Origin: Clostridia bacterium
GTDB taxonomy: Bacteria > Bacillota > Clostridia > UBA1212
DNA length: 53,100 nt
Direction of reading: 5' to 3'
Assembly: GCA_017444825.1 (NCBI GenBank)
Contig: JAFSVU010000018.1
Coordinates: 1-53,100 of the forward strand
The notes below the pieces were generated by a model, which was not told the origin of the DNA, searched no databases, and saw nothing but the letters and a program-made list of their open reading frames with translations. The position numbers were made by a program, and so were the translations under genes. This document shows, piece by piece, positions 1,290-34,208 of this stretch (position 1 is the first letter of the stretch; every line of letters begins with the position of its first letter).

Positions 1290-3080
1290 TTAGACCTCGC
1301 TGGTAAAATAAAAACGCTTTATGCTGCACCATGTCAGGCGCTCTGTACTAAACGGGCAATCATCATTATAATCTGCCGGGTCGAATCGCAACCCGCCGAC
1401 GAATCCATTCCAGTTAGGGTTGCTGCTCATATCGACGACATATGTGTGAGATTCTCCGTCCGGTACGGTTTCAAATTCGACCATGCGCTCTCCATACCAA
1501 ATCTGGCTTGCGACATCTGTGAAGAAGACCTGAGCTTTTTTACTTGTTCCGACGATTTTCATTTCAATATGGAGGTATCTGAAGTGAGCGGTGTTAAGGC
1601 TGAAGCCGGTTTTAAAAATGTATGGATCTTCATTTTGGAAAGCAAATCGTAGTTCACTTGGGTCATTGCTTATTGGTTCCATTTGGTAAATGTTGTCAAA
1701 TTTATCGCGCAGTTCAGGATCAAACACTGTCTTTGCGGTATCCTGGCCGGGAAGAGAAATCACGTTAACAGTATAATTGACAGGATCTTTTGATTGCAAT
1801 TCGATTTTGTTGATTTGGATCGGATGTATATATATTGAACAGACGCAACTGAACCTTTCATAATGCCTGTTTATCAGGTAGATGTAATCGTCATTAATAA
1901 TGATCTTATCCCTGCAAGCAGAGTGCCTTTCCGGAATGCCTGCGACGTCTACCCTGCAGGAATAAACCGGTGAATCAAAAACGATTGTCTGAGTGTACAG
2001 ACCGTCTTTTTTCTCTTTCAAATTCACCGGACATGTCAATACTAAATGAGTTGCAGTAAAATCTTCGGAGTACTGCAAACTGTTTAGTTCATGCAGTATT
2101 TGTGGCAGCAAATCGAGTTCTACCGCATATTCCTGTTCCAAAGATTTTATGAGCTTTCCTATATATTCGCTGTCAAAGCAAAGTGTTGCGGGAAACTGTC
2201 CGTTTTTTGACTGGTACTTTATATTCAGAAGTCTGATTTTTTCAAGTCTGGCAGCATGCTCACCGAATTCGCCGATCAGTTTTTTCAAGGCCTCGCTTAT
2301 ATTGTAATTATCGCCAATGTATAGTAGCCTTTCGTAAAGATACTCTTTGTGCTTTACAAAGTCGTGCAAGCTTTTGTAATTGATTTTGCAGTTGACAGAC
2401 TTTAATTCAGTTATAATCGTTCTATATAACTGAACGCCGTATACTACGTTAGGGTTATTGTAAAGTTCTTTCCTTGGCGAACTGTACCACTCGCTCTCTT
2501 TGACACAGAATAGATAGTGCGACAGGTTTTTGATAAAAAGATCGAGGTGAAAATCTGCTTTGAAAGATATTTTTGGCTTGACGACGGTCAGAGTTTGACT
2601 CACGGCGTCAATGCTTCCTCCGGACATGTAATAGGATCTCACTCCATTCAAGGAGTCGTATAACTCGCTTGCAGCGATTTTAGTTACACGCTGTCCCTTG
2701 GTTATGTCAAAAAAGATGGTATCGTATTGGGCTGTTTCTTTGTTGTAACCAAAAACCACCAGCGGATGTACAAAATGGTTCCAATGATATCGCATGGAAA
2801 CGGGTATAAAGTACTCATCGACCCATAGGATCGCGAATTGATCAGAGATTATCGCATTTTGCAGGACTTCATGAAAATCGTTCAATTCATCTATGGAATA
2901 ACAGGTCAGTTGATTGAATAGTCCGTAAAAATCCACGTTGTCGACATAATCGACAACACCGTCATACATCATCAGATTGACGAATCTTTCGGTGATCCAG
3001 CCGGTTTGACTGGGTCTGTTGATAAAATAAAGCAATGGATTGATCTGAAAAGCAGAATTCGTAACAGTGTTCTTTTTCAT
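1290..3080 (-). CDS. BtrH-like N-terminal domain protein with C-terminal beta-sandwich
   Basis: A 596-residue protein without a signal peptide. Roughly residues 15-160 have the layout of the butirosin BtrH N-terminal/papain-like family: FAILWVDEYFIPVS, then HWNHFVHPLVVFGYN, whose His is the usual acid/base position, then a beta-strand and acidic turn. BtrH moves an acyl group from an acyl carrier protein onto an amine. The expected N-terminal cysteine is not obvious here (the segment reads INRPSQTGWITERFV), so the enzyme may be catalytically different or inactive. About residues 440-596 form a carbohydrate-binding-like beta-sandwich with a conserved-looking NWNGFVGGLRFDPAD motif. Its ATG overlaps the ligase stop by 4 bases and GGAGG lies ahead of it, so it is translationally coupled to the ligase. 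Acyl transfer in the peptide pathway is inference. Confidence 0.6.
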   Translation of the reverse strand: MKKNTVTNSAFQINPLLYFINRPSQTGWITERFVNLMMYDGVVDYVDNVDFYGLFNQLTCYSIDELNDFHEVLQNAIISDQFAILWVDEYFIPVSMRYHWNHFVHPLVVFGYNKETAQYDTIFFDITKGQRVTKIAASELYDSLNGVRSYYMSGGSIDAVSQTLTVVKPKISFKADFHLDLFIKNLSHYLFCVKESEWYSSPRKELYNNPNVVYGVQLYRTIITELKSVNCKINYKSLHDFVKHKEYLYERLLYIGDNYNISEALKKLIGEFGEHAARLEKIRLLNIKYQSKNGQFPATLCFDSEYIGKLIKSLEQEYAVELDLLPQILHELNSLQYSEDFTATHLVLTCPVNLKEKKDGLYTQTIVFDSPVYSCRVDVAGIPERHSACRDKIIINDDYIYLINRHYERFSCVCSIYIHPIQINKIELQSKDPVNYTVNVISLPGQDTAKTVFDPELRDKFDNIYQMEPISNDPSELRFAFQNEDPYIFKTGFSLNTAHFRYLHIEMKIVGTSKKAQVFFTDVASQIWYGERMVEFETVPDGESHTYVVDMSSNPNWNGFVGGLRFDPADYNDDCPFSTERLTWCSIKRFYFTSEV

Positions 3081-4426
3081 TGGGTTTTTCCTCCGGGTTT
3101 GCTATCATTTACTATGTGATCAATTACTTCGCTTATGATTATTTTGCCGTTTCTGTTTCTCGGCAGGCTTGCACATCGGACGAAAATATAGGGTATCTCG
3201 TAAGACATCAATTTTGATCTCAGTATTTGTTTATCCTTTGGACCAATGTCTTTTTCATCTACGTACAGGCACCCGATCCGTTCACGGCCGGATATGTCCA
3301 CCTTTACTACAATGCACTCTTTTACGGAGGTGTTGTCTGTTATTATTGTTTCCACGTCGCCGGGATATATCTTATGGGAATCAATGATTATAACATCGTC
3401 TATCCTGCCTACAATGTGAAGCTCGTCGAATTCATCAATAAAGCCTATGTCTCCGGTGTTAAACCAGTTTTCGCAAAGTGACGCGTATTTCCATGTCCCT
3501 ACGGCATACCCTTCAAACTGACAGGGGGATTGAACGTGCAAAACACCATATACACCACGTGGCGTTTCTTTGCCTTGCTCATCAAAAATTTTTATTGCAA
3601 CACCCTTAACCGGCTTGCCGACAGAATTGGTTTTGCAGCACTCAGGCCTTTGAGCCGATACTCTCGGGCCGAGCTCTGACAAACCGTATACGTTGTAGAT
3701 GGGAATGTTTGAAAAAACATCATGCGCCTTTTCGTATGTTTTATCGTTCAAAATCGAGCCACTTACATAGATCGTCCTGACAGAGGAAAGATCATATTTT
3801 GCCTCATCGTAGGCATCCGCAAACATTGATAACAACGTGGGATTGACACATATGAGAGTGACTCCAAACAATGCAATATACTTAAACACATACCTTGGGG
3901 GAACAATTATTGGGCCTATTACAAGTTTCATACCTGTCTTAAGTGCGACAAGCAGTTCGCCTACTAATGTGGAGGAGTGTGAGATAGTTTTGCAAATGTA
4001 TATGCAATCACTTGGATCAGGCTTCATATAGTCGATGATCGCTTCTGCATTTGTATTGATCGCAAAGTGCGATAATATAATTCCTTTTGATTTTCCGGTG
4101 GTGCCTGAACTGTAAATAATAACGGCTTCTTCTCTTGTGTTTTTTTTATGAAAACTACTGTAGATATTATCCGGCAAAAGTGCAGGCGCTTCATTTAATC
4201 TTTCGAATGTAAAAAAACTGACTGAGGTCGACGCAATGGAAAATGCCTCATAATACGCCTTTTCAATATAGCACTTTTTGACACCGGCTTCTTCCATCAT
4301 TGCCAAAGCTGTATCCGCAGGTATTCTCCAATCTATGAGAACCGCACAATCACCATTATTCCAGATTTTGATTAGAGTGTCGATATACCCGATAGAGTTT
4401 TCTCCTATAATTGCGACTCTGCACAT
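3077..4426 (-). CDS. AMP-forming acyl/aryl/aminoacyl ligase (ANL superfamily)
   Basis: A 449-residue adenylate-forming enzyme, slightly short because the N-terminal subdomain is trimmed. Core motifs are visible: YSSGTTGKSKG near residues 105-115 (A3, phosphate loop), YNVYGLSELGPR near 245-258 (A5), NTGDIG and GRIDDVI (A7/A8 hinge) and PRNRNGKI at the C-terminus with the A10 lysine. Such enzymes activate a carboxylate as an acyl-adenylate and pass it to CoA or a carrier-protein thiol; the substrate cannot be read from sequence. AAGGAGA precedes the ATG at 4426. It is the middle gene of the leftward arm, between the nitroreductase and the BtrH-like gene. The acyl carrier protein of the opposite arm is a plausible acceptor, as inference. 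Confidence 0.85.
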   Translation of the reverse strand: MCRVAIIGENSIGYIDTLIKIWNNGDCAVLIDWRIPADTALAMMEEAGVKKCYIEKAYYEAFSIASTSVSFFTFERLNEAPALLPDNIYSSFHKKNTREEAVIIYSSGTTGKSKGIILSHFAINTNAEAIIDYMKPDPSDCIYICKTISHSSTLVGELLVALKTGMKLVIGPIIVPPRYVFKYIALFGVTLICVNPTLLSMFADAYDEAKYDLSSVRTIYVSGSILNDKTYEKAHDVFSNIPIYNVYGLSELGPRVSAQRPECCKTNSVGKPVKGVAIKIFDEQGKETPRGVYGVLHVQSPCQFEGYAVGTWKYASLCENWFNTGDIGFIDEFDELHIVGRIDDVIIIDSHKIYPGDVETIITDNTSVKECIVVKVDISGRERIGCLYVDEKDIGPKDKQILRSKLMSYEIPYIFVRCASLPRNRNGKIIISEVIDHIVNDSKPGGKTQ

Positions 4427-4516
4427 AAATAATCTCCTTTGATAAATCGTTTTCCGTGAAAGGAACAGTATTAGATTATCCTAATTACATTGGATGTTTA
4501 ATGTGATAAGATGATT

Positions 4517-5023
4517 TCAGTAATTGTCTATCAGAAAAGAATTCAAATCTCTTCTTCTTGGTACCTTTGGTTTCTCTGAGGAATAACCAAAGACAATCAA
4601 ACCCATTAACTCAAGCGAATCATCTTTGATTTTCAGGAGTGACTTGATTTGGTCTTGCTTGGAAACTATTTCTCCGATCCAGCAACTGCTTATTCCCAAG
4701 GAGGTTGCAGCAAGCAGCATGTTTTGAATCGCTGCACCGCAAGATTGGACATCTTTTACGTAGTCATATGATAAGTGTTTGTCGAGAAAAACAAGAATGA
4801 ACAACGGCGCAGAACGCATCCAAGACTCGTAGGCCGACAGATGCGATAATTGAGAAATCATTTGGACATCAGTAACACAGCTGAACTTCCAAGGCTGACG
4901 ATTTTTACCGGATGGAGCACAAATTGCTGCCTCTAAAATATTCTTTTGTTTTTCAGCATCGATTACAGTTCTTTCGAAACTCCGGATGCTGCGTCTTTCT
5001 TTAATACAATCAATTACATCCAT
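4517..5023 (-). CDS. Nitroreductase-family flavin oxidoreductase
   Basis: A 168-residue protein with nitroreductase hallmarks: the N-terminal RRSIRSFE FMN-binding arginine motif, APSGKNRQPWKF, GAAIQNMLLAATSLGISSCWIG, and the C-terminal GYSSEKPKVPRR. Members bind FMN as dimers and reduce or oxidise diverse substrates; in natural-product clusters they often desaturate or tailor an intermediate. It is the promoter-proximal gene of the leftward arm, about 90 bases before the ligase. No YcaO cyclase is present, so azoline oxidation of the type seen in thiazole/oxazole peptides is not supported. The ribosome binding site is weak. Confidence 0.85.
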   Translation of the reverse strand: MDVIDCIKERRSIRSFERTVIDAEKQKNILEAAICAPSGKNRQPWKFSCVTDVQMISQLSHLSAYESWMRSAPLFILVFLDKHLSYDYVKDVQSCGAAIQNMLLAATSLGISSCWIGEIVSKQDQIKSLLKIKDDSLELMGLIVFGYSSEKPKVPRRRDLNSFLIDNY

Positions 5024-5071
5024 AGCTTATGATAATACTTAAAACAAAACCATTCTGTTTGCAACGGATTT

Positions 5072-5099
5072 ATTATAGCATGATACGAACGGAAATCAA
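5072..5099 (-). promoter_or_regulatory. Promoter of the leftward biosynthetic arm
   Basis: On the minus strand TTGATT (5099-5094), a 16-base spacer and TATAAT (5077-5072) with an extended -10 (TGC) form a strong SigA-type promoter about 50 bases ahead of the nitroreductase ATG. Confidence 0.7.
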
Positions 5100-5212
5100 A
5101 TAGTTGTGATGATGATATTTTGTGCTGGTCCGTTTTGTAATGATCGGTGTAATACCGGTTTTTAAGGGTTGAGCCAGACTTCAAAAAAGGACAAAAATTC
5201 TTCGGAGAAGGG

Positions 5213-5242
5213 TTGACAAGGATCTCATCAATGTGTTAACAT
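5213..5242 (+). promoter_or_regulatory. Promoter in the divergent region, rightward
   Basis: TTGACA (5213-5218) is followed after 17-18 bases by TTAACAT (5236-5242). It would start a transcript near 5250 that reads the 25-codon leader ORF and, if not terminated, the rightward arm. Confidence 0.6.
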
Positions 5243-5325
5243 GAATTCCAGCAAGGTTGATTAAAAGCCGAGACGATAGTAAATGATGGTATATGTTGTC
5301 GTCTTTTAGAAGAAAGGGAAAAAAT

Positions 5326-5403
5326 ATGGAATCAGTGTCTTACAGTTGTTTATTACTGTTTCTTTATCACGATCACAACAGTCAAAGAAATCTCAGATTT
5401 TAG
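5326..5403 (+). CDS. 25-codon leader ORF (putative attenuator peptide)
   Basis: ATG at 5326 follows AAGAAAGGGA at suitable spacing and the frame ends with TAG at 5401. The peptide reads MESVSYSCLLLFLYHDHNSQ then RNLRF. A promoter lies about 85 bases upstream and an AGACGA/TCGTCT stem (5271-5276 with 5299-5304) sits just before the ribosome binding site. Size, position and the long untranslated stretch after it (332 bases to the next start) suit a regulatory leader peptide like those that control antibiotic-responsive genes by ribosome stalling. It could also be a chance ORF; no terminator/antiterminator pair was clearly seen. Confidence 0.45.
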   Translation: MESVSYSCLLLFLYHDHNSQRNLRF

Positions 5404-5734
5404 TTTGTCTGTTCGCGGACTGACGGCTCAGGTTAAGTGTGGGTGTGTCTTGTTTGTGAAACAGTTTGTTTCTAATGCTCCGGCATTATAAAGCCCATAT
5501 GAATAATCGTACATTTTCGGCGTGAAAGTGTCTTTGGCTATAGTTCGTCACGTTCCCTAAGTTTTAATGATATGTCTTTGGTCTCTTGCAAATGCTTGAT
5601 GACTGCTATTTTTGGCATACGAAAAAACTGAATAATTGTGTCATTTTTGGTGCACTCCTAGGTTATACATAATCAATAATGCATTTTGAATGTATTGGTT
5701 TGAATAAAATAATGCGTTGTAAGGGAGAAAGGAA
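5404..5734 (+). other. Leader between the small ORF and the acyl carrier gene
   Basis: 331 bases without a credible gene. It is AT-rich, contains GTCTGTTCGCGGAC near 5406 as a small hairpin, and ends with GGGAGAAAGG, the ribosome binding site for the ATG at 5735. No convincing promoter pair or intrinsic terminator was found, so the rightward arm may depend on the promoter at 5213-5242. Confidence 0.45.
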
Positions 5735-6013
5735 ATGAATGTAGAAACAAAAATAATTGAGCTAATTTTTCGTAGTGATAATTTAGAAGATTATAACATT
5801 GATGCTTCAGCCGATATAATGAGCATCAACATATTTGAAGATTTGGGATATGATTCGATTCAATTTGTAGAACTAATCATAAGTATTGAAAAATCATTTA
5901 TGATCGAGATCGATGATGACATGCTGGATATGAGTCTTTTTTCAACAGTTCAGGATATTGTGAAAAGCATCAAAGAAATGGTTGGAAACGGAGAAGAAGT
6001 AGAAAATGGATAA
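5735..6013 (+). CDS. Acyl carrier protein
   Basis: A 92-residue acidic protein of the four-helix acyl carrier fold. The phosphopantetheine site is FEDLGYDSIQFVELI with Ser41 in the DSI motif, followed by the typical acidic helix II and EIDDDMLDM. It should be modified by a 4'-phosphopantetheinyl transferase and hold a thioester-bound building block. The start follows AGGGAGAAAGG. It is the first structural gene of the rightward arm and overlaps the next gene by 8 bases. It is unlike a housekeeping AcpP (no fab neighbours, island base composition), so a dedicated role is likely. Probable loading partners are the PaaK-like enzyme directly downstream and the divergent ligase. Confidence 0.88.
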   Translation: MNVETKIIELIFRSDNLEDYNIDASADIMSINIFEDLGYDSIQFVELIISIEKSFMIEIDDDMLDMSLFSTVQDIVKSIKEMVGNGEEVENG

Positions 6014-7244
6014 TTGTTTGTTAGAGCGTATGGTTACGCATTGTTTTTCAACGGTTCCTTATTACGAAAAGATAAAGGAACAAGCCGGCGATTCTTTTTA
6101 CGGGCTTCCAATCATTACAAAGGAAATGGTTTCTTTAAATCCGGATGATTTTTTGTCGTCTTCCTATGTTAAGCCTTATGAACTAGGCAGGCTGATCAAT
6201 AAAAAAACATCCGGCAGTACGGGAACCTGCTTAACTATTTACTGGTCACACGGTGATGATACACTTGCCAATTTAGAGGCCTGGAAATATAGACACAAAT
6301 GGTATGGCGTGTCGATCAAGGATAAATATGTTTCTTTTCACTCCACACTTTATTACGCAAATCGTTTGGCAGAAGAAGAACCGTTGTTTATTCAAAGAGG
6401 TAATAATCTATCTTTGTGTAAAAACAAACTAACAAAGCAAACGATCGGTGAGTATTTCGAACTGATCAAAAGCGTAAAACCAAGCTGGATGTTTCTTCAA
6501 CCGAGTGTTTTGCAATTGTTATTCAGGTATGCTTCTGAAGAACAGTTATCCATTTTGAATGATCTGCAATATATTGAGCTTACGGGCGAATATCTTTCAG
6601 AGCAAACAAAAAAGGCTTTTGAATCGCTGATCCCCAATGTAAAAATTGCAAATATGTATGGAACAACTGAAACCGGTTGCGTCGCACTGCAGTGTCCCTG
6701 CGGACATATGCATATACTACAAAACGCTGTTGTTGAGATATTTGATGATGAGTATAAGCACCAAACAGAATCGGAAGGGAACGTGGTGCTGACCACGCTG
6801 AAAAACTATGCTATGCCGCTTCTTCGTTATCGAATAGGCGATAAGGGATTAATTAAGCGGTCAAACTGTGAATGTGGTTTTTGTGGAGATGATATTATCA
6901 TTACAGCGGGACGGGAAGGCGACATTGTTTATTCTCCTGACGGAAACAATAAGACCTGCTACAGTTTCCTAAAGGTAGTCGAATACGTAAACGATGAATT
7001 CAACAATCCCATCGTTCAGTTCAATTTTGTTCAGCCTGACAAACAATCATTGGTTATGTATTTACAGATCAAACCTTCCTATGACAAGTGGAAAAGAAGC
7101 ATTGAGCAATTATTATATGACAAACTCAGGGAAGAGTTTTCTGCATTCGTGAATATAAAGGTGGTGTTCGACGGTGAGTACGATTTTGAAAGAAATAACA
7201 AGATCAAGTTTTTTGAAAGAAAATGTCTTTCAGAAGGGGAATGA
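6006..7244 (+). CDS. PaaK/CapK-like adenylate-forming enzyme
   Basis: A 412-residue member of the phenylacetate-CoA ligase branch of the ANL superfamily. Motifs: KKTSGSTGTC near residues 67-75 (phosphate loop), MYGTTETGCVALQCPCGHMH near 217-236, RYRIGDKG near 275, then a C-x-CG-x-CG stretch that with the earlier CPCG may bind zinc. The small C-terminal domain is present. It should adenylate a small, often aromatic, carboxylic acid and transfer it to a thiol; overlap with the ACP gene suggests the ACP is the acceptor. This is a second activating enzyme besides the ligase at 3077-4426, so the locus could prepare two building blocks, or one enzyme could act in recycling. The substrate is unknown. 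Confidence 0.8.
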   Translation: MDNCLLERMVTHCFSTVPYYEKIKEQAGDSFYGLPIITKEMVSLNPDDFLSSSYVKPYELGRLINKKTSGSTGTCLTIYWSHGDDTLANLEAWKYRHKWYGVSIKDKYVSFHSTLYYANRLAEEEPLFIQRGNNLSLCKNKLTKQTIGEYFELIKSVKPSWMFLQPSVLQLLFRYASEEQLSILNDLQYIELTGEYLSEQTKKAFESLIPNVKIANMYGTTETGCVALQCPCGHMHILQNAVVEIFDDEYKHQTESEGNVVLTTLKNYAMPLLRYRIGDKGLIKRSNCECGFCGDDIIITAGREGDIVYSPDGNNKTCYSFLKVVEYVNDEFNNPIVQFNFVQPDKQSLVMYLQIKPSYDKWKRSIEQLLYDKLREEFSAFVNIKVVFDGEYDFERNNKIKFFERKCLSEGE

Positions 7245-7245
7245 G

Positions 7246-8691
7246 ATGAATAACCTGCCATTTATAAAACTGTTTAAATCTGTATATGGTCATTACTTTT
7301 TTGATGTTAACACGAATCAAATCGTGAAAATCAGCCAAGATGCCTACTTAAAGCTTGAAAAAATACTCAAGGAAGGTTCCCATACCGGAGGAAGCGATTT
7401 GATAGATGAACTGATCCAAGGTGATCTTGAACTGAGTGAGCTTAGAAGCGAAGGTTTTTTGAAAAGCAATCGCCCGTTAAAAATTGAAATGAAAGAGACA
7501 GCCAAGCTCCCTTATTTTCTGGAACACAGATTACGCACATTAACACTTCAGGTCACACAGCAGTGTAATTTTCGTTGCAGATACTGCCATTATACATACG
7601 GAGACGACAAACAATACCATTCGCATAAATCGAATTCAATGAGTTGGGAAACAGCAAAGGCGGCAATAGACTTCTTTGCGGAAAGAACGCGGGACACAGT
7701 ACGCTTAGACGTAGGATTTTATGGCGGCGAACCCTTACTTGAATATGAATTGATAAAAAAATGTGTGGAGTATTGCAAAACCAAGTTCGAAGGGAAAAAA
7801 CTCAGTTTCCATATGACCACCAACGCTTTTTTATTGACGGTAGATCGGGCAAGGTACTTAATCGAAAACGGGACAAGTATTCTTGTGAGCATAGATGGGC
7901 CCAGAGAGATACACGATAAAAACAGAAAAAACGCAGGAAACGGCTCCGGAACGTTTGATGTAGTATTTAAGAATTTGGAAAAAATAAAAAATGAAATTCC
8001 TCAATACTACGAAAAATTGTCGTTTAACAGCGTTTTGGATCCTGTTAACGATTGCAGCAAAGTGAACAATTTTTTTAACTGTGACATGTTCAGAAAACAA
8101 GAGGTTAAGGCATCAGTACTTCAGCCATCTGTTGGGAAAGGTGTTTTCTATTCTCAAGAGTATCTAAATACCGACAAGAAAGATAGGTTACTTGCGTTAC
8201 TTGCTAAAATTGGTGTCATAGAAGAATCGTGTCTTTCGGTGCTTGCACTTAACAATTTGACTGCCATTAAACGATTTGACGATGATATGCAGCGTTTTGA
8301 TGATATTTCGCAAGTTATGGGTCACGGTGGACCATGTCAACCGGGAGTGTTCAAGTTGTTTGTTACGACAAACGGGAATTTATTTCCTTGTGAAAAGATC
8401 AAAGATAATTCTGAGGTAATGAAGTTAGGAACTGTTTTTACTTCAATAGATGCAGAGAAAGCGAAATACTTGTTTAATGTCGGAAACATCTGTACGGAAC
8501 GCTGTGTAAATTGCTGGAACATACGCCACTGCCAGCTGTGCGCAACAAAAATAAACGATGGCAATGCTCTGTCTGCCGAGATGTGTGCAACCGAATGTAA
8601 GAAAAATTGTTCAAACACGGCATCTCGAATAAAAGCATATATTGCCTTGAGAGAAGTTAAGGAAATGATTGATAAGGGGGCTGTGTCATAA
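7246..8691 (+). CDS. ccpM: Radical SAM/SPASM Cys-rich peptide maturase (CcpM-like)
   Basis: A 481-residue enzyme. Residues 1-95 resemble a peptide-recognition region. The radical SAM cluster motif CNFRCRYC has Cys107, Cys111 and Cys114, followed by the SAM-binding GFYGGEPLL motif and ILVSIDGP. The C-terminal SPASM region is Cys-rich (CQPG, FPCEK, CTERCVNCWNIRHCQLC, CATECKKNC), enough for two auxiliary clusters. Length and context match the clostridial CcpM (TIGR04068-type) maturases that modify Cys-rich precursors, probably by thioether or related C-S/C-C bond formation. The ATG at 7246 has AAGGGGA ahead of it and sits one base past the previous stop. The likely substrate is the peptide encoded at 10044-10208. 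Confidence 0.85.
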   Translation: MNNLPFIKLFKSVYGHYFFDVNTNQIVKISQDAYLKLEKILKEGSHTGGSDLIDELIQGDLELSELRSEGFLKSNRPLKIEMKETAKLPYFLEHRLRTLTLQVTQQCNFRCRYCHYTYGDDKQYHSHKSNSMSWETAKAAIDFFAERTRDTVRLDVGFYGGEPLLEYELIKKCVEYCKTKFEGKKLSFHMTTNAFLLTVDRARYLIENGTSILVSIDGPREIHDKNRKNAGNGSGTFDVVFKNLEKIKNEIPQYYEKLSFNSVLDPVNDCSKVNNFFNCDMFRKQEVKASVLQPSVGKGVFYSQEYLNTDKKDRLLALLAKIGVIEESCLSVLALNNLTAIKRFDDDMQRFDDISQVMGHGGPCQPGVFKLFVTTNGNLFPCEKIKDNSEVMKLGTVFTSIDAEKAKYLFNVGNICTERCVNCWNIRHCQLCATKINDGNALSAEMCATECKKNCSNTASRIKAYIALREVKEMIDKGAVS

Positions 8692-9791
8692 TGATTAAAA
8701 AAACAATCGTTTATCCGTATAGCAGAAGTTTTGCAGCGTATTTGAGACATATCAATTGCAATAAATTATACAACGTTACTGAAGCTGTTATCCCCGGGAG
8801 ATGGTGGAAGGACAATGAAGATGCTGGAGGCATAGACGGGGGCGAAAAAATAGGAATACCGATCAGATATGGTTTTGAGGACTGTTTAAATCAGTGTGAT
8901 ACGGTAATATGGGCAAGTTATGAGTATTATGATAACAAAGCCTTTTATGATACTGTTTTATCGAAGATAGAAAAAGCTTTAGAGCTGGGGAAAAACATTG
9001 TATGCTTTGAGGAACTGACAAAAAAAGAACTTCAACTGTTTAAAGAAAAAGCGGCTGCAAATAATTGTCTGTTCATCTACAAAGAAAACGAAAAATATCC
9101 CGGATCCGATGACGGTGCGCAGAAACCCATAGATGTGCCTATAATAACCGTAACGGGACTCACAGAAGAGTGTTCTAAGTTTGATACGGAATTAAACGTT
9201 TACAGAGCGCTCTCTGCGAAAGGATACAGGGTTTTGCTGATATCATCCAAAACTAACGCAAACCTTTTGAACATTTATTCATTTCCATCATTTATGTTTT
9301 CCCCAAAACGTAGTGAAATGGGAAAAATGAGATTGCTAAGATCGTATATAGCACATTTACAACAGAAGGTGTCTCCGGACGTTATAGTTTTGGGCGTACC
9401 GGGAGGACTGCTGCCGTTTAACGATCAGTATGATATGCATTACGGTATTATTGCATATGAAGTATTCTCGGTGCTAAAAACGGATTACAATGTTGTCAAT
9501 GTATGGTGCGATGTTTTAGACAGTTTAATCATCGATAAGATACCCGATATCTGCAGGTACAGATACGGAATGAACGTAAATGCGATAGGAGTATCAAATA
9601 TAAGCTTATATCTCGAGGGTTTGCAAGATGAACAAAGTACTTTGGAGTATAGCGTTTATGACTCGGATATGGTTGATAAGACAATAGCTTTTACAAACAA
9701 GGAGTCTAATAGCCTGAAAATGTATAACCTGGTAAAGAATGATTCAGTTGACAAATTAGTTGATGACATCATTATCTCATTATCTGAATAA
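8691..9791 (+). CDS. TIGR04066-type peptide maturation system protein
   Basis: A 366-residue protein that starts on the last base of the maturase stop codon. N-terminal KTIVYPYSRSFAAYLRHI and VIPGRWWKDNEDAGG, a middle FEDCLNQCDTVIWASY, and a nucleotide-binding-like second half (PIITVTGLTEECSKFDTEL followed by YRALSAKGYRVLLISS) match what I recall of the TIGR04066 family, which occurs only beside CcpM-type maturases and ACP-related proteins. A classical Walker A lysine motif is not evident, although the strand-loop-helix pattern resembles the P-loop of the cobyrinate synthase/DUF1611 group. Its biochemical role is unknown; it may act as an ATP-dependent partner of the maturase or of the carrier protein. 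Confidence 0.7.
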   Translation: MIKKTIVYPYSRSFAAYLRHINCNKLYNVTEAVIPGRWWKDNEDAGGIDGGEKIGIPIRYGFEDCLNQCDTVIWASYEYYDNKAFYDTVLSKIEKALELGKNIVCFEELTKKELQLFKEKAAANNCLFIYKENEKYPGSDDGAQKPIDVPIITVTGLTEECSKFDTELNVYRALSAKGYRVLLISSKTNANLLNIYSFPSFMFSPKRSEMGKMRLLRSYIAHLQQKVSPDVIVLGVPGGLLPFNDQYDMHYGIIAYEVFSVLKTDYNVVNVWCDVLDSLIIDKIPDICRYRYGMNVNAIGVSNISLYLEGLQDEQSTLEYSVYDSDMVDKTIAFTNKESNSLKMYNLVKNDSVDKLVDDIIISLSE

Positions 9792-9804
9792 AGGAACAAA
9801 AATA

Positions 9805-10047
9805 ATGAACTGCATTGATCAAAACCGGAATGAAATAGAAACGATTATACGTGAAATACTATGTAAAAAACTTTGTAGGGACGCAGAAGATCTGTCAAAA
9901 CTATCCGTTACGGAGCTGCTTTATTTGTATGGAGAAATATGTGCAGAGTTCAATATTCTTCTTACGGCGGACGATATTAACAATGGCTGTTTTTCTTCAT
10001 TACATGATCTGATTGATACCTTATGTGAGAAAGGAAATAAAAAATGA
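9805..10047 (+). CDS. Peptide maturation ACP-related protein
   Basis: An 80-residue protein with an ACP-like helical pattern, corresponding to the TIGR04069-type ACP-related proteins of these loci. Where a carrier protein has DSL/DSI, this one reads KLSVTELLYLYGEI: a serine (about residue 34) is kept but the preceding Asp is Leu, so phosphopantetheinylation is uncertain. AAAGGAAC lies before the ATG at 9805. Its TGA overlaps the ATG of the precursor peptide (ATGA), making it the translational partner of the substrate gene. It could be a chaperone or docking factor for the precursor rather than an acyl carrier. Confidence 0.7.
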   Translation: MNCIDQNRNEIETIIREILCKKLCRDAEDLSKLSVTELLYLYGEICAEFNILLTADDINNGCFSSLHDLIDTLCEKGNKK

Positions 10048-10208
10048 AAAAACTCGTTAAAAAAAATGAAAACAGGTTAATGAATATAAACATACAGGCG
10101 TTTGGTGCCTGCAGGAGCGGGGCATGTAGTTGTGCGTGCTATGGTCCCAAACATCCCGAATTCGATGACAACACCGATCGTGATCTGTTGCCTACATTGC
10201 ACAAATAA
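10044..10208 (+). CDS. Cys-rich RiPP precursor peptide (CLI_3235/Clo7bot-like)
   Basis: A 54-residue ORF starting in the ATGA overlap with the ACP-related gene. The Lys/Asn-rich leader (MKKLVKKNENRLMNINIQAF) is followed by a core with Cys23, Cys28, Cys30 and Cys32 in GACRSGACSCACYGPKHP and an acidic, cysteine-free tail ending DLLPTLHK. A basic leader, a C-x4-C-x-C-x-C cluster and a position behind the maturase and ACP-related genes are what is expected of a CcpM substrate. The cysteines are the likely thioether donors. The subtilase 61 bases downstream is the probable leader peptidase. Exact family membership (CLI_3235 or Clo7bot type) is from memory of these families and untested. Confidence 0.82.
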   Translation: MKKLVKKNENRLMNINIQAFGACRSGACSCACYGPKHPEFDDNTDRDLLPTLHK

Positions 10209-10269
10209 CTAAATAAATCTTTTGTGTCCTTGCAAAGTTTTTTACATAGTTTTTTCACGTGGAGAAAAC

Positions 10270-11457
10270 ATGATCAAAGTAGCGTTTATTGACAATGGTA
10301 TTACAACGGGTTTACTTCAGGAGGGGTTTGTAGATGAGACTGTTAGCTTTTTCACAGCGGACAACTCGCAAGACACGAACGATGGTACAGTCAACCATGG
10401 TTCATTGTGTGCAGCGATTTTTGAAAAGTATTTGCATTTTGACAAGCCGTACATAATAGACGTAAGAATTTCAAAAGTTGGCGAAGAGTCCTACCTGGCA
10501 GAATTCATTAAGGCTATTGAGTGGTGTACAGATAACAATGTTGACATAATAAATATCAGCATGGGGACCACAAACCGTTTTGCATTTCCGGTTATCAGGA
10601 AAGCCTTGCATGCTGCATTTATGAAAGGAATCATTGTTGTCGCAGCCATGGATAATGGACAAAAGTATACTCTGCCGGCCTGTCTTTCGGGTGTTATAGG
10701 CGTAAAAACGTCGACGCTTTATACAAACGGAGAGTATAAACTCAGATGGTACCCTTTTGACGGAATAGATGTTATTACGGGGGGACGGCATCAAATTCAA
10801 ACTCCTGATGGCAAGGAATTGGCTACTATTAATACAAACAGTTTTTCTGCACCTGTTATCACTGCGCACGTCTCAAACATTTTTTTTGAGTTTGGGAAAA
10901 TACCGTACGATGAAGTGATGCTGTTGCTGGCGAAGAGGGCGGCAAACACGTTTGGTTATTTCATAAAAGGATATTATCCATACTTCTGGAACAGTATTAC
11001 AGATTACAAGGATGACTTCCTTTGGGATAAAGAAATGTACTCAAAGATTGTAAAACCGTATCTGAAGAATAAGAAGAAGCCAATTGAAACACCGGCTGTT
11101 TCTTTCGCCGGTGATAACAAATCCAAATGCGTCGAAGTAATCGACAAGTTCGCTCAAAAACTGGAAAAAGAAAGCTACACATTTATCATATTGTCGGATT
11201 CGATATTGAGATTCTCGGACAATGTCATTATACCGTCAGGATGCGATATAGAGAACTTTTTTTCCTGTGTTGACGATCTGTTTACACCCGACGTTTATCT
11301 TATTGTGTCAGAAAACAAGTGTCCTGCGGATGTATTGGTTAAAGTTGACGATTCAATTCATATCGAATATGAAGACTGTGGAAAAAACTTCGCAAAAGAA
11401 TACTTGATGAACGATATTTGTGAGGCTTGTGGATATTTGCTCGAGATACTTAAATGA
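10270..11457 (+). CDS. Subtilisin-like (S8) serine protease, probable leader peptidase
   Basis: A 395-residue protein beginning at the ATG behind GGAG (10261-10264). The S8 catalytic triad is visible: Asp8 in AFIDNGI, His43 in VNHGSLCAA and Ser191 in NSFSAPVIT, with oxyanion Asn129 in VVAAMDNG. There is no signal peptide or pro-region, so it should act in the cytosol. The C-terminal ~190 residues are not protease-like and may recognise the substrate or exporter. Because neither exporter carries a C39 peptidase domain, this enzyme is the natural candidate to remove the leader of the peptide encoded just upstream. Confidence 0.85.
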   Translation: MIKVAFIDNGITTGLLQEGFVDETVSFFTADNSQDTNDGTVNHGSLCAAIFEKYLHFDKPYIIDVRISKVGEESYLAEFIKAIEWCTDNNVDIINISMGTTNRFAFPVIRKALHAAFMKGIIVVAAMDNGQKYTLPACLSGVIGVKTSTLYTNGEYKLRWYPFDGIDVITGGRHQIQTPDGKELATINTNSFSAPVITAHVSNIFFEFGKIPYDEVMLLLAKRAANTFGYFIKGYYPYFWNSITDYKDDFLWDKEMYSKIVKPYLKNKKKPIETPAVSFAGDNKSKCVEVIDKFAQKLEKESYTFIILSDSILRFSDNVIIPSGCDIENFFSCVDDLFTPDVYLIVSENKCPADVLVKVDDSIHIEYEDCGKNFAKEYLMNDICEACGYLLEILK

Positions 11458-11470
11458 GAAAGGTGCAAAA

Positions 11471-13255
11471 ATGAGATCTTTTTTTAAGACGGTTCGGTTT
11501 TCGTTTGGATTGCTGTATAAGTCAAGCAAACTGATGTTTGCAGCGTATTTTTTGCTGCAGGTGGCTTGCAGCGTTGTCCCATTAATGAGTGTTTACGTGT
11601 TGAGAGACTTGTTAAACGCTCTGGTCGATATAGAGTCAGTAGGGTGGTCTGTTCTTTGGCCGGTTTGCCTGTATGCCGTTATCCTGATCTCCTTGATCGT
11701 TCTCCAATCGATGGATTCCTTGCTTCATGATCTGATGTATGAAAGGGCAATGCACAAATATGCCTATGATTTTGCTCAAAAAATGAGTGTATTGCCAATG
11801 TCATTTATTGACACAGCTGAAGGAAGAGACAAGATTGATGAGGCGCGTTATTTGATGACGACGGCGGTCAACTTTCCGACGTATCTCATCAGATTTTTGT
11901 CGGTTGCAGCTTCTTTTGTTATAGCATACATGCAGATTGCGTCGTTTAATATTGGTTTTTCTCTTTTATTTATTTCCCTCTCTGTTCCGGGAATAATATT
12001 TCAAATGGTTTTTTCCAGGAAAGCTGACCGTCTCAGAAGGGCTCAGGCTCCTGACGTAAGAAAGTTTTGTTATTACAGATGGATGCTGACTGATGCGTGG
12101 CCCGCAAAAGACGTTCGCATGTACGATCTCACGAAACCGATCTCGAAAAGATATGATGAAGAAAAAAAGCATTACCGCGATGCAAACAAAAAGCTGGATA
12201 AGAAAAAGATGTGGGCGGAACTGCTCACGGAATTGGTTAAGAGAAGCGGCGAGATCGCATTCAGCATTTTTGTAATAATAAAAGCGGTTTCGGGGGAGAT
12301 CGGCGTGGGCGACACGGCAATGTACATTAGTTTTGCCGTTGCTGCGATCGAGTCGTTCGAGGGTGTTGCAGGCATTCTTGTTTACGGAGTGATACGTTCG
12401 AGTGCGAATATGAAGTATGTTTTTGATTTCTTCGAAAGAGAAACACCCGAACGTAAGACAGGAACGCGAAAGCTTGAATCGTTTGAATCATTGGTTTTTG
12501 ACAATGTATATTTTAAGTATCCTGCTTCCGAAACATACGTTTTGCAAGGCGTTTCTTTTGAGTTAAAAAAAGGTGACAAGCTTTCTATCGTGGGGGTCAA
12601 CGGTTCGGGAAAATCGACGATAGTAAAACTGATGCTCGGCCTGTACGAGATCGAATCGGGGACAGTGCTTATAAACGGATATCCGGTAAGCGATTATGAC
12701 ATTCAGGACGTACGCAGACTCTTTTCCGCACTTTTCCAGAGTTTTGTTCAGTATCCGCTCACGCTGAGAGAAAACATTGCACTGTCTGATTTAGACCGGA
12801 TGGATAATGATAAGGAGATTGAGAGCGTATTGGTTAAAAGCGGTGTATTTGATGAGATCAAGCCAAAGCTTAAGAATGGGTTGGACTCTTTTATGACCAG
12901 GAGCTTTGACGATGAAGGGACCGAACTTTCAAGAGGACAGTGGCAGAAGATCGCGTTGTCCCGTGCATATTTTAAGAACGCAGAGATCGTTATTTTTGAT
13001 GAACCCTCTGCCGCACTTGACGCTGAGGCTGAAGACCGGATATTTAAGAATTTTGAAACGATAGCTGACGGAAAAACAAGCGTAATGATCTCACACAGGA
13101 TATCGAGTGCCAGGATCTCAAACAAAATAATTGTGTTGGACGGTGGGAAGATCACCGAACATGGAACTCATGACGAGCTTATGGAACTAAGCGGTCTGTA
13201 TGCAAAGCTGTATAACCTCCAAAGAAACAAATACACGATAAAGGAGGAAGAATGA
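11471..13255 (+). CDS. ABC exporter half-transporter, subunit A
   Basis: A 594-residue fused permease-ATPase of the type I exporter fold: about six membrane segments in residues 15-310, then an NBD with VGVNGSGKST (Walker A), an LSRGQ signature in place of LSGGQ, IVIFDEPSAALD (Walker B with the catalytic Glu) and SHRIS (switch His). The changed signature suggests it forms a heterodimer with the next gene in which one ATP site is weaker. The ATG at 11471 is chosen because AAAGGTG precedes it. It lacks a peptidase domain. Likely role: export of the processed peptide product and/or self-resistance. Confidence 0.87.
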   Translation: MRSFFKTVRFSFGLLYKSSKLMFAAYFLLQVACSVVPLMSVYVLRDLLNALVDIESVGWSVLWPVCLYAVILISLIVLQSMDSLLHDLMYERAMHKYAYDFAQKMSVLPMSFIDTAEGRDKIDEARYLMTTAVNFPTYLIRFLSVAASFVIAYMQIASFNIGFSLLFISLSVPGIIFQMVFSRKADRLRRAQAPDVRKFCYYRWMLTDAWPAKDVRMYDLTKPISKRYDEEKKHYRDANKKLDKKKMWAELLTELVKRSGEIAFSIFVIIKAVSGEIGVGDTAMYISFAVAAIESFEGVAGILVYGVIRSSANMKYVFDFFERETPERKTGTRKLESFESLVFDNVYFKYPASETYVLQGVSFELKKGDKLSIVGVNGSGKSTIVKLMLGLYEIESGTVLINGYPVSDYDIQDVRRLFSALFQSFVQYPLTLRENIALSDLDRMDNDKEIESVLVKSGVFDEIKPKLKNGLDSFMTRSFDDEGTELSRGQWQKIALSRAYFKNAEIVIFDEPSAALDAEAEDRIFKNFETIADGKTSVMISHRISSARISNKIIVLDGGKITEHGTHDELMELSGLYAKLYNLQRNKYTIKEEE

Positions 13256-13256
13256 A

Positions 13257-15041
13257 ATGAACAAAGTGAAGCGTTTTTTCTCCGGAATGATCAAAAATGT
13301 CTGGTTTGGTATTAAGACAAGTTTCTTTGCGTCAAAGTTCTATTTTTCAATGAAAATATTGATACTTCTTTCCGAGACCCTTATTCCGCTTGTGAATATC
13401 TGGCTTTGGAAAGAGATCCTGAACGGAATCGTGGATTACGAAGCCAAGGGCGGCGCAATTTTGATATGTCTTGCGGTTTATCTTGTCCTGCAACTGGCAA
13501 CCTATCTTCTGGCGAAATTCGGTTCGTACGTAAACACCCGCTTCGGAGATGAGATGCAGTTCTATATCGAAAAGGTTATGATGGAAAAAACCTCCCGGGT
13601 GTCTTTGGCGTTTTTTGATTCTGCTCAAATGGGGGATAAGGTCCGCCATGCAAGAAGCAATTTTGACGCCATGACGCAGATGACCTGGCTTGCGTTTGAT
13701 ATTGTCTCAGCGTTTATCAACGTAATTGCCGCGCTTGTTATCGTCCTGGCATACAAGTGGTGGGTGGGGCTTATTACGCTTGCATTTTTGATCCCGTTTA
13801 TGATTTATAACAAAAAACGGGCTGAGCGCAGATTGGAAATGGAAAAAGAGCAGCTTCGTGACAACCGCAAGATGGATTATTACGGGAACGTGTTTTCCGA
13901 CAACAACATCCAATTTGAGGTGAAACTGAATAACATTGGCGCGTATTTCCTGAGTAAATACAGAGAAACATGGAAAAAGCTTTACAACATCAACAAATCG
14001 GAAAACGTCAGGCACAATATAATTAATTCGCTGATCCTTGCGCTCAACGTCTCTTGTGATTTTCTGGTGTTGATATTGTCTGTCTTCGACGTCGTTAACA
14101 ATCAGATAGGGATCGGCGACGTACAGTATAATCTGAGCATAGTTGCGAGGCTTCATTCACAGGCGCAATTGCTGATGGAGCAGGTGATCCAATTCCTTAA
14201 CAGCAATACAAGGCTGATGGAGCTTCAGGAATTTTTGGATATTAAACCGGAAACAGAAAAGAGCGGCACGCTTAAGCCTTCGCAAAACCCAAAGATCGAG
14301 TTCATAGGCGTCAGCTTTCGATACCCCAATTCTGACCAATACGTTCTCAGGAACTGTTCATTTACAATAGAACCGAACGAAAAGATCGGTTTGATAGGTC
14401 TTAACGGGGCAGGCAAATCAACAATAATCAAGTTGATGTTCCGTTTCTACGATCCGGAAGAAGGGTGCATAAAACTGGACGGGGTCGACTTGAAGGAGTA
14501 TGACGTTTATGCGGTGAGAAAGGTGTTTGGCGTTCTGTTTCAGGACTATGTTACTTACTGCCTGCCGCTTAGGGAGATCATAGCTCTTTCCGATTTTGAC
14601 GAGCGATTCAATGATGAAAAGCTTAAAAGAGCCTGCGATATCAGTGGCGCAAGTGAGATCATCAAGGACTGGGAGGACGGTTTCGAGAGCGTTTTGGGGC
14701 GCTACTATGCAGATAACGGGAAAGACCTTTCCGGTGGTCAATGGCAGATTGTAGGCCTTGCGCGTGCATACTTTAAGGACAGTGATTATATGATTTTGGA
14801 TGAACCTTCTGCAGCGCTTGACCCCTTTGCGGAAGACCGGATATTCGAGCGGCTTTACCGGTTGAGCGAAGGGAAAAGCTCGGTTACTATCTCACACAGG
14901 CTGTCCAACACGACTCTTGCGGATAAACTGTTGGTCATTGACGACGGTCATATCATAGAGCAGGGTTCTCACTTTGAGCTTCTTAAGCAAAACGGGAAGT
15001 ATGCGCAGCTGTTCCGGCTTCAGGCAGAAAAATACCAATGA
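13257..15041 (+). CDS. ABC exporter half-transporter, subunit B
   Basis: A 594-residue partner of the preceding gene, one base after its stop. Membrane domain in residues 20-310; NBD with IGLNGAGKST, a canonical DLSGGQW signature, YMILDEPSAALD and SHRLS. Equal length and parallel architecture support a heterodimeric exporter. It is the last gene of the rightward arm and is followed after about 28 bases by a strong intrinsic terminator. Confidence 0.88.
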   Translation: MNKVKRFFSGMIKNVWFGIKTSFFASKFYFSMKILILLSETLIPLVNIWLWKEILNGIVDYEAKGGAILICLAVYLVLQLATYLLAKFGSYVNTRFGDEMQFYIEKVMMEKTSRVSLAFFDSAQMGDKVRHARSNFDAMTQMTWLAFDIVSAFINVIAALVIVLAYKWWVGLITLAFLIPFMIYNKKRAERRLEMEKEQLRDNRKMDYYGNVFSDNNIQFEVKLNNIGAYFLSKYRETWKKLYNINKSENVRHNIINSLILALNVSCDFLVLILSVFDVVNNQIGIGDVQYNLSIVARLHSQAQLLMEQVIQFLNSNTRLMELQEFLDIKPETEKSGTLKPSQNPKIEFIGVSFRYPNSDQYVLRNCSFTIEPNEKIGLIGLNGAGKSTIIKLMFRFYDPEEGCIKLDGVDLKEYDVYAVRKVFGVLFQDYVTYCLPLREIIALSDFDERFNDEKLKRACDISGASEIIKDWEDGFESVLGRYYADNGKDLSGGQWQIVGLARAYFKDSDYMILDEPSAALDPFAEDRIFERLYRLSEGKSSVTISHRLSNTTLADKLLVIDDGHIIEQGSHFELLKQNGKYAQLFRLQAEKYQ

Positions 15042-15069
15042 GTTCTGAAGCGCCAAATGGTTCAGATCC

Positions 15070-15096
15070 GGGCGGGTGTCATTCCCGCCCTTGTTT
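15070..15096 (+). terminator. Intrinsic terminator of the peptide operon
   Basis: GGGCGGG (15070-15076), a 7-base loop, CCCGCCC (15084-15090) and TTGTTT. It marks the right end of the biosynthetic arm. Confidence 0.8.
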
Positions 15097-15137
15097 GTCC
15101 TTGTTGTCAGGTAAACGATGCGATTGACAAGAAAGGG

Positions 15138-15460
15138 GTTTGCAAATAGAATACATAGGATAAGTAAAAGCGGTGCCGGACAAGGTAACAGGTAAGAGGT
15201 AATAGGTAATAGGGGCCCACGTCGACTACATTTCATCGAGGAACGATTCTGCACGAAGTGCAGCCAAGTGACGAGATGCAAGGTGCGAGACGCAAGGGGT
15301 GCCGCTCAAGGTAACAGGTAAAAAGTAAGAGGTAATAGGGGCCCACGTCGACCACATTTCATCGAGGAACGATTCTGCACGAAGTGCAGCCAAGTGACGA
15401 GATGCAAGGTGCGAGACGCAAGGGGTGCCGCCTTAGGTAAAAAGTAAGAGGTAATAAGTT
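15138..15460. repeat. 126-bp tandem repeat with GTAATA-type short repeats
   Basis: This stretch has no gene. It begins with GCGGTGCCGGACAAGGTAA, passes through several GGTAATA/GGTAAGA units, then GGGGCCCACGTCGAC, ATTTCATCGAGGAACG and a CTGCAC-GAA-GTGCAG hairpin. The whole block recurs with a period of 126 bases (GGGGCCCAC at 15212 and again at 15338), and the GGTGCCG plus GTAA part starts a third time near 15425. Related pieces occur at 19372-19440 (inverted), 21672-21705 and 45517-45596. It separates the AT-rich island from the GC-rich backbone. Confidence 0.85.
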
Positions 15461-15503
15461 AGAGGTGCGGAAATAGCGCATTGGCGTAAAACACGGAGGG
15501 TTT

Positions 15504-30677: not shown

Positions 30678-31709
30678 ATGGCAGTAAAAGTTGCTATTAA
30701 CGGTTTCGGACGTATCGGACGTCTCGCTTTCAGACAGATGTTCGGAGCAAAAGGCTACCAGGTTGTAGCTATAAACGATCTCACAAGCCCAAAAATGCTT
30801 GCACATCTTCTCAAATATGACACAGCTCAGGGCTCCTACCTCGGAACGATCGGTCAGAATCTTCACACAGTTGAATCCACAGAAGATTCCATCATAGTTG
30901 ACGGAAAAGAAACCAAGATCTACGCTTGCAAAGACGCTAAGGATTGCCCCTGGAAGGCTCTCAAGGTCGACGTGGTTCTCGAATGCACAGGCTTCTACAC
31001 CAGCAAAGAGAAATCCATGGCTCACATTCAGGCAGGCGCTAAGAAAGTCGTTATTTCCGCTCCGGCAGGCAACGATCTCCCCACCATCGTTTACAGTGTT
31101 AACGAGAACACACTGACCCCCGATGACAAGATCATCTCCGCAGCATCCTGCACCACCAACTGCCTGGCTCCTATGGCCAATGCGCTCAACAACGCTTACC
31201 CGATCGTTTCCGGTATCATGACAACTGTTCACGCTTACACCGGCGACCAGATGATCCTCGACGGCCCCCAGAGAAAGGGCGACCTCAGAAGGTCCAGAGC
31301 AGGCGCTATGAACATCGTTCCTAACTCCACAGGCGCTGCAAAGGCTATCGGCCTCGTTATCCCCGCACTCAACGGAAAGCTCATCGGCTCCGCTCAGAGA
31401 GTTCCTACAGCTACAGGTTCCACCACGATCCTCGTTGCTGTCGTTAAGGGCAAGGACGTTACAAAAGAGTCCATCAACGCAGCTATGAAGGCCGCCTCCA
31501 ATGAGTCCTTCGGCTACAACACAGATGAGATCGTTTCCTCCGACGTTATCGGTATGAGATACGGCTCACTCTTCGATGCTACACAGACAATGGTAGCTAA
31601 GATCGACGACGACACATATCAGGTACAGGTTGTTTCCTGGTACGACAATGAGAACTCCTACACCAGCCAGATGGTTAGAACGATCAAATACTTCGCCGAA
31701 CTTAAGTGA
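30678..31709 (+). CDS. gap: Glyceraldehyde-3-phosphate dehydrogenase
   Basis: A 343-residue type I GAPDH. The N-terminal [12 protein letters not shown] Rossmann motif, the NAD-selecting Asp in [10 protein letters not shown], the catalytic cysteine in [12 protein letters not shown] with its His in [28 protein letters not shown]-type phosphate-binding residues, and [13 protein letters not shown] near the end are all present. It catalyses the NAD-dependent oxidative phosphorylation step of glycolysis. GGAGG lies ahead of the ATG, and codon choice is biased as in highly expressed genes. It is monocistronic, followed at once by the structured repeat elements, the first of which may serve as its 3' end. 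Confidence 0.97.
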
Positions 31710-31713
31710 TCAC

Positions 31714-31878
31714 TCTTTTTTGGCTCTTTACGCAATCTGCGAAAGAATATTTATGATAGAAATGCGGATGAAATATGCCGCATTTTTATTATGTTCGCAG
31801 ATTGCTTTTTGCGAGCGGACCTCTCGTAGTACCTTCGTACGACTTCGGGTCCGCGCGCAAAAAAATAGCTCAAAAAAT
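31714..31878 (+). repeat. Structured repeat element, copy A
   Basis: A 165-bp element between two copies of AGTGATCAC (31705-31713 and 31879-31887). It starts TTTTTTGGCTCTTTACGC and ends AAAATAGCTCAAAAAAT, which are imperfect inverted repeats. Stem 1: GCAATCTGCGAA (31732-31743) with TTCGCAGATTGC (31794-31805), enclosing stem 2 AATGCGG/CCGCATT (31761-31767/31778-31784) followed by T-rich bases. Stem 3: 31806-31821 with 31848-31863, capped by GTACCTTCGTAC (31829-31840). Stem 2 plus its T-run could end the gap transcript. Confidence 0.85.
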
Positions 31879-31906
31879 AGTGATCACATTCTACGAGGAA
31901 GTTTAA

Positions 31907-32060
31907 GGCTCTTTACGCATTTTGCGTAGAATAACCTTTTAGAAAAGTGCGGATGAAATATTCCGCATTTTTCTTTTATCAGAACGCAAAATGCTTTGCT
32001 CGAATGGACCGCTCGGAGTACCTTCGTACACCGTCGGGTCCATTCAAGCAAAAATAGCTC
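31907..32060 (+). repeat. Structured repeat element, copy B
   Basis: Same layout as copy A with different stem sequence: stem 1 GCATTTTGCGT (31917-31927) with ACGCAAAATGC (31984-31994); stem 2 TGCGG/CCGCA (31948-31952/31963-31967); stem 3 TTTGCTCGAATGGACC (31995-32010) with the complement at 32037-32052; apical GTACCTTCGTAC at 32018-32029; ends AAAATAGCTC. Confidence 0.85.
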
Positions 32061-32085
32061 ATAACTCTGCGTTTATTGTTATAGA

Positions 32086-32165
32086 CTCTTTTTTGGCTTT
32101 TTACGCAATCTGCGAAATAACAATTAAGATAAGAATGCGGATGAAATATGCCGCATTTTTATTTT
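32086..32165 (+). repeat. Structured repeat element, copy C (5' half only)
   Basis: Very close to the left part of copy A (CTCTTTTTTGGCT, GCAATCTGCGAA, and stem 2 AATGCGG/CCGCATT with TTT after it), then the similarity stops. The third hairpin is missing. Confidence 0.8.
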
Positions 32166-33309: not shown

Positions 33310-33335
33310 TAATATTTCAAACGAAGGGAAAGAAA

Positions 33336-34139: not shown

Positions 34140-34208
34140 GGGTAAAAACTGCCCTGAAGCCGGTCGGATCGTGCTCGTAAGGGGAGAAATAATAAAAAAA
34201 CCTTGAAA

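Follow-up and report, generated by a model that had tools for sequence, protein, structure and literature searches.

We analysed a stretch of 53,100 nucleotides (nt), hereafter the window, from contig JAFSVU010000018.1 of a Clostridia bacterium (assembly GCA_017444825.1, lineage UBA1212). Its left part holds an AT-rich island in which the genes of a CcpM-type radical S-adenosylmethionine (SAM) peptide-maturation core stand together with those of an acyl-activation arm, i.e. a true acyl carrier protein (ACP), two adenylate-forming enzymes, a nitroreductase and a BtrH-like protein. The genes are as follows.

7246..8691, + strand: CcpM-like radical SAM/SPASM peptide maturase; TIGR04068 at 469 bits (E 1e-140), curated cut-off 500.
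8691..9791, + strand: TIGR04066 protein, directly downstream of the CcpM-like gene with a 1-nt overlap; 252.7 bits, above the cut-off of 200.
9805..10047, + strand: ACP-related protein of the TIGR04069 type; 25.7 bits against a cut-off of 70.
10044..10208, + strand: Cys-rich precursor peptide of 54 amino acids (aa) with 4 Cys, MKKLVKKNENRLMNINIQAFGACRSGACSCACYGPKHPEFDDNTDRDLLPTLHK; TIGR04065 matches its leader at 19.5 bits (E 8e-4; cut-off 26).
10270..11457, + strand: S8 subtilase, candidate leader peptidase; PF00082 at 45.6 bits, above the cut-off, and QhpE-like at 72.5 bits.
11471..13255, + strand: first ABC exporter, with membrane and ATPase domains; open reading frame (ORF) with homologues in related loci.
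13257..15041, + strand: second ABC exporter; ORF with homologues in related loci.
5735..6013, + strand: true ACP with the phosphopantetheine motif GYDSI; PF00550 at 30.4 bits, above the cut-off of 20.8.
6006..7244, + strand: PaaK-like adenylate-forming enzyme; PF00501 at 58.1 bits, above the cut-off of 29.9.
3077..4426, - strand: acyl-adenylate-forming ligase, MenE/FadD-like; PF00501 at 158.9 bits, above the same cut-off of 29.9.
4517..5023, - strand: small nitroreductase-family protein; PF00881 at 103.5 bits, above the Pfam cut-off.
1290..3080, - strand: BtrH-like protein, a candidate for the acyl transfer step (C39-like acyltransferase family); long extension at the C terminus, remote match.

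The genes of the + strand are tightly packed in the order ACP, PaaK-like, CcpM-like, TIGR04066, TIGR04069-type, precursor, subtilase and the two ABC exporters. From the ACP through the TIGR04066 gene the neighbours overlap or lie 1 base apart: the ACP and PaaK-like genes overlap by 8 nt, and the maturase gene starts one base past the PaaK stop. Further downstream, the precursor ATG overlaps the stop of the TIGR04069-type gene. The nitroreductase, the second adenylating ligase and the remote BtrH-like protein form a divergent set on the - strand, where the start of the BtrH-like gene overlaps the ligase stop. ORF listing and family scans recovered every gene named in an original prediction made from the letters of the window, with the S8 protease and the exporters inside the AT-rich island. 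The range given there (3077-15041) encloses most of these genes, but the BtrH-like gene lies mostly outside it.

In the maturase the radical SAM motif CxxxCxxC is present as CNFRCRYC. CcpM is its best NCBIfam family, the next one scoring 209 bits, and given a score below the curated cut-off we regard the protein as CcpM-like and not as an equivalog. The TIGR04069-type protein has Val at the position of the phosphopantetheine Ser; its placement, its size and the loss of the Ser fit the family. The precursor leader resembles the leaders in three other loci (L037, L061 and L065). These two proteins appear to be divergent members at best, and with this qualification the known clostridial type of core that had been predicted (CcpM-like, TIGR04066, ACP-related and Cys-rich precursor proteins) is present. 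Because the CcpM, TIGR04069, TIGR04065 and BtrH_N matches all fall below the curated cut-offs, the cluster is, as judged from its sequences, a divergent relative of the known CcpM type.

The proteins of the acyl arm are for the most part clear family members: the ACP, both adenylate-forming enzymes and the nitroreductase had been predicted and all pass the Pfam cut-offs. The PaaK-like protein retains SGSTG, YGTTE and RYRIGD and matches the NCBIfam DVU_1553 family at 90.5 bits, under the cut-off. The ligase has YSSGTTGKSKG, YGLSE and NGKI with Lys428. A phosphopantetheinyl transferase domain is encoded in the host genome. The predicted BtrH-like protein fared less well, since it reaches only 17.5 bits with PF14399 (BtrH_N, residues 63-118, cut-off 29.7), but it has relatives in L065 (phmmer 5e-6 to the BtrH-like protein there) and L037, through which alone the family link runs. 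It retains the motifs D-E-x-F-I-P and H...GYN; its AlphaFold model was unusable (predicted local distance difference test, pLDDT, 40). A Pfam scan detected no GNAT acyltransferase among the island proteins, and no plasmid copy of PaaK was found.

The note had proposed asking whether the genes of the arm recur beside the maturase in other genomes. Core loci (about 50) were gathered by TIGR04066 searches and a scan of the collection. In nearly all of them TIGR04066 comes after CcpM and usually has TIGR04069 behind it; most also have S8 and ABC genes close by. The L061 locus (an Oscillospiraceae metagenome-assembled genome, MAG) has the order ACP-PaaK-CcpM-TIGR04066-TIGR04069-precursor. At L063 the order is PaaK-CcpM-TIGR04066-TIGR04069-precursor, and no ACP gene was found there; its PaaK (L063:7351-8547) no longer has AMP-binding motifs, although its gene remains next to CcpM. 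The loss of motifs where no ACP was found is as expected if PaaK and ACP cooperate. L037 (a Clostridia MAG) carries on one strand genes for a ligase, ACP, SDR, PaaK, ABC, several precursors, CcpM, TIGR04066, TIGR04069, S8 and a BtrH-like protein. L108, whose genome belongs to the same order as the window's, was found by searching the class with a PaaK alignment and is not an independent case. It encodes two BtrH-like proteins, ABC, SAM synthetase, ligase, ACP, PaaK, a CcpM-like protein (360 bits) and the only GNAT protein seen, together with a protein occupying the TIGR04066 position and a 48-aa Cys peptide; ligase, ACP, PaaK and CcpM are consecutive. The co-occurrence asked about is found, i.e. 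ACP and PaaK directly precede CcpM in L061 and L108. L037 and L108 each have ligase, ACP and PaaK in one cluster with CcpM, and BtrH-like genes as well. At L064 a BtrH-like gene sits between TIGR04066 and TIGR04069. No nitroreductase gene was seen in the other hybrid loci.

Three further candidates were set aside. The ACP and BtrH match of L081 belongs to a neighbouring polyketide cluster, the BtrH-like gene of L048 stands beside genes resembling a neighbouring non-ribosomal cluster, and the ligase of L046 is of the long-chain acyl-CoA-ligase type amid unrelated genes.

Several of these loci have features of their own. L037 additionally encodes a glycosyltransferase fused to a TIGR04066-like domain (L037:12078-14429) in which the GK P-loop is intact, adjoining a UDP-glucose dehydrogenase. 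Downstream of the CcpM locus of L063 (L063:11879-21092) there are tandem paralogous substrate-binding lipoproteins and a further precursor peptide (14713-15006). In L067 (L067:5910-17724) an S8-TIGR04066 fusion occurs with a true ACP, which is another TIGR04066-ACP pairing; the locus also holds a radical SAM enzyme of a different kind, a beta-lactamase-like hydrolase, two ABC genes and possibly a BtrH-like gene.

PaaK is otherwise rare: of the 391 genomes of the class, only 21 have a profile match at E<1e-30, which is a stronger background than a control with random 20-kb stretches. In that control PaaK was present in 3/52 core loci not found via PaaK against 0/52 random stretches, which is not significant alone. 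The hybrid loci L037, L061 and L063 were found through TIGR04066 alone, and at roughly one PaaK per 50 Mb three such hybrids are far above expectation; this is an estimate, and the loci also helped to build the profile. In the PaaK tree the seven module PaaKs, the window's included, form one clade (support 98/97) apart from seven other PaaKs, and within it the CcpM-linked and CcpM-free ones are intermixed. Of the five hybrid maturases in the CcpM tree, four fall together with weak support (83/61), and that of L037 is placed elsewhere with good support.

The window has two ACP-like proteins, and the distinction drawn between them in the original prediction is borne out. TIGR04069 proteins have mostly Pro or Ala at the position of the phosphopantetheine Ser, and some have Val, Gly or Thr; in four of them a Ser occurs, without the preceding Asp. 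Unlike these proteins, the ACPs added to the clusters of the window, L037, L061 and L108 all have Asp-Ser. This bears on the suggestion that PaaK and ACP serve CcpM and TIGR04069 as structural partners and not as catalysts. A PaaK without AMP-binding motifs beside CcpM in L063, and the very nature of TIGR04069 as an ACP relative without the Ser, would suit it, but the window, L037, L061 and L108 all retain both PaaK SGS(T/S)G and the ACP Ser, and we consider it very unlikely.

We suggest, at about even odds for and against, that a CcpM-type radical SAM peptide cluster acquired a stand-alone acyl-activation module and that its peptide receives an acyl group. This is suggested because the ACP and PaaK genes overlap, CcpM starts 1 base after PaaK, the arrangement recurs and PaaK is otherwise rare, and further because the module PaaKs share a clade, the ACP Ser is kept and the host has a phosphopantetheinyl transferase domain. 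In such a pathway CcpM, with TIGR04066 and TIGR04069, would crosslink the precursor core through its Cys residues. A carboxylic acid would be adenylated by the ligase, PaaK or both and loaded on the true ACP, and a transferase, most likely the BtrH-like protein, would hand the ACP-bound acyl (or aryl) group to the peptide at an amine or hydroxyl. Acyl transfer would precede leader removal by the S8 protease and export by the ABC proteins. Each of the two adenylating enzymes may have an acid of its own to activate; alternatively, PaaK may come in after loading. For loading and transfer we draw on family knowledge and gene linkage.

Several observations weigh against an acylated peptide. The BtrH-like protein, as a very weak family match, is the weakest link of the pathway; it has NS near its start where its relatives have NC, and the N-terminal alignment is poor. 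No BtrH-like gene was seen in the 12 kb of L061. The arm is absent from most CcpM loci, the SacP23 cluster included, and it also occurs without CcpM: L107 has a PLP (pyridoxal phosphate) decarboxylase, ATP-grasp, ACP, ligase, PaaK and BtrH-like protein, and in L177 (with L178) ligase-ACP-PaaK-ABC-ABC stands with two BtrH-like genes. These CcpM-free modules probably act on small molecules. At a further locus, L119, a ligase gene is accompanied by a truncated ACP gene and an ABC gene. Finally, no product or acylated peptide of the proposed pathway is known, and the acyl substrate is not readable from sequence.

It may be argued, accordingly with some reason, that the island holds two pathways and that the arm (ligase, ACP, PaaK, BtrH-like protein and nitroreductase) makes a small molecule of its own, with no more than regulation and export in common with the peptide cluster. 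In L107 the arm is found by itself, with the butirosin-like set of PLP decarboxylase and ATP-grasp, as it is in L177, with sugar-nucleotide genes, and the ligase, BtrH-like and nitroreductase genes of the window are divergent from the operon. On the other hand, ACP and PaaK are packed against CcpM, and the PaaK-CcpM adjacency recurs in L061, L063 and L108; we hold two separate pathways to be unlikely, if the most serious of the alternatives. A quite improbable variant is that PaaK and ACP act on the peptide without a BtrH donor route, either with PaaK joining an acid directly to the peptide (BagE/FevW-type) or with the pair loading an amino acid that extends it. The PaaK matches the BagE/FevW synthetase model (E 2e-13, below the cut-off), and no BtrH-like gene was seen at L063 or L061, but in the window, L037, L107, L108 and L177 the module comes with BtrH-like genes.

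Acylation of the peptide thus stays our preferred interpretation, and its two sides are those already foreseen in the original prediction: the arms co-occur repeatedly, but most CcpM loci lack the acyl arm and the latter is found without CcpM in L107 and L177. Because the arm recurs beside CcpM in several unrelated bacteria, also stands alone, and is missing from most CcpM loci, the best reading of the sequences is that arm and core are two independent modules repeatedly joined, and not one chance neighbourhood. Repeated joining would be the simplest history; a single joining followed by losses may be an alternative.

The surroundings of the genes comprise the following features.

5213..5242, + strand: promoter-like TTGACA-18-TAACAT upstream of the operon; 4 sites against a shuffle mean of 3.6, suggestive only.
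5243-5734, + strand: operon leader of about 490 nt ahead of the ACP, containing a 25-aa ORF, MESVSYSCLLLFLYHDHNSQRNLRF.
15168..15468, + strand: copies of a 126-nt dispersed host repeat forming the island's right edge; 97 matches across the host genome.

Rfam gave no regulatory RNA match in the 5' leader. The island has a GC (guanine plus cytosine) content of 36-45% against 51-56% across most of the rest of the contig, and its right end lies at about 15041-15170, where the dispersed repeat begins. A second AT-rich stretch (31501-34500) has 39-44% GC, in a contig that otherwise has mostly 50-56%. The step in composition at the right edge of the island, where GC rises from about 45 to 54%, in a genome of 56 contigs with 3% contamination, could indicate that the island is a foreign contig fused to the host in metagenome assembly. 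This is extremely improbable, as the sister cluster L108, with a ligase 50% identical to the window's, occurs in another genome of the same order, and the right side of the island continues into the repeat that has its matches in the host.

The TIGR04066 protein was modelled with AlphaFold (pLDDT 87). The model matches the DUF1611 structures 2g0t (VIA-align Z 23.8, root-mean-square deviation 4.0, 309 aligned) and 2obn (Z 23.0) as well as DgcN 7xrj (Z 18.9), which is an N-acetyltransferase by its entry title. These matches span the whole model; the others (Z 12-15) cover single domains only. The predicted structure has a DUF1611-like fold with a Rossmann-like domain and a P-loop domain, and a GxxxxxxK P-loop remnant is conserved across the family. 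A pattern scan of a 22-sequence TIGR04066 alignment was dropped, as the sequences are too diverse, and a search of the viral collection found nothing.

The nearest known system is the SacP23 cluster of Paenibacillus polymyxa, which yields an antimicrobial peptide when expressed in Bacillus subtilis; eight genes are reported with no acyl genes listed, and the TIGR04066 protein (23SacE) is called an immunity protein (PMC10731318). The modelled fold does not give the function but lends no support to that role. The SacP23 cluster shares with the window the radical SAM maturase, TIGR04066, TIGR04069, S8 protease, ABC exporter and Cys-rich precursor, but is without a true ACP, PaaK, ligase, nitroreductase and BtrH-like gene. 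The acylated ribosomal peptides named in PMC13060382 are GNAT-modified lanthipeptides (lipolanthines, goadvionins, selidamides and nostolysamides). Like the outcome proposed for the window, these are ribosomal peptides acylated by a dedicated enzyme, but they combine lanthionine chemistry with GNAT transferases and lack the ligase-ACP-PaaK-BtrH module, whereas the window has radical SAM chemistry. The CcpM-free modules of L107 and L177 have the same enzyme set and PaaKs in the window's clade, but no radical SAM maturase was found near them. In the butirosin side-chain arm (BtrI/J/K/H) an acyl group bound to a carrier protein is handled by a BtrH-family acyltransferase. L107 resembles it in having ACP, ATP-grasp, PLP decarboxylase and BtrH; the island, in contrast, has no ATP-grasp or decarboxylase gene and uses adenylate-forming ligases, and its BtrH match is remote. 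No paper joining these peptides with acyl carrier proteins was found in the open literature, subscription journals being largely outside this search.

The core of CcpM, TIGR04066, TIGR04069, protease and exporter is already known, and the added part is the stand-alone thiotemplate acyl module. The DUF1611-like fold of TIGR04066 bears on the workings of known CcpM clusters such as SacP23, as does the separation of a predicted working-type ACP from the Ser-less TIGR04069 proteins. More tentatively, and on balance we lean against it, there may be a hybrid product class, i.e. radical-SAM-crosslinked ribosomal peptides to which a BtrH-family transferase adds an acyl or aryl group taken from an ACP, with a mobile ligase-ACP-PaaK-BtrH module serving to decorate small molecules as well as ribosomal peptides. 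The recurrence of the module provides a handle for genome mining and, if true, a radical SAM peptide class supplied with acyl groups by a free-standing carrier-protein module would unite two biosynthetic logics.

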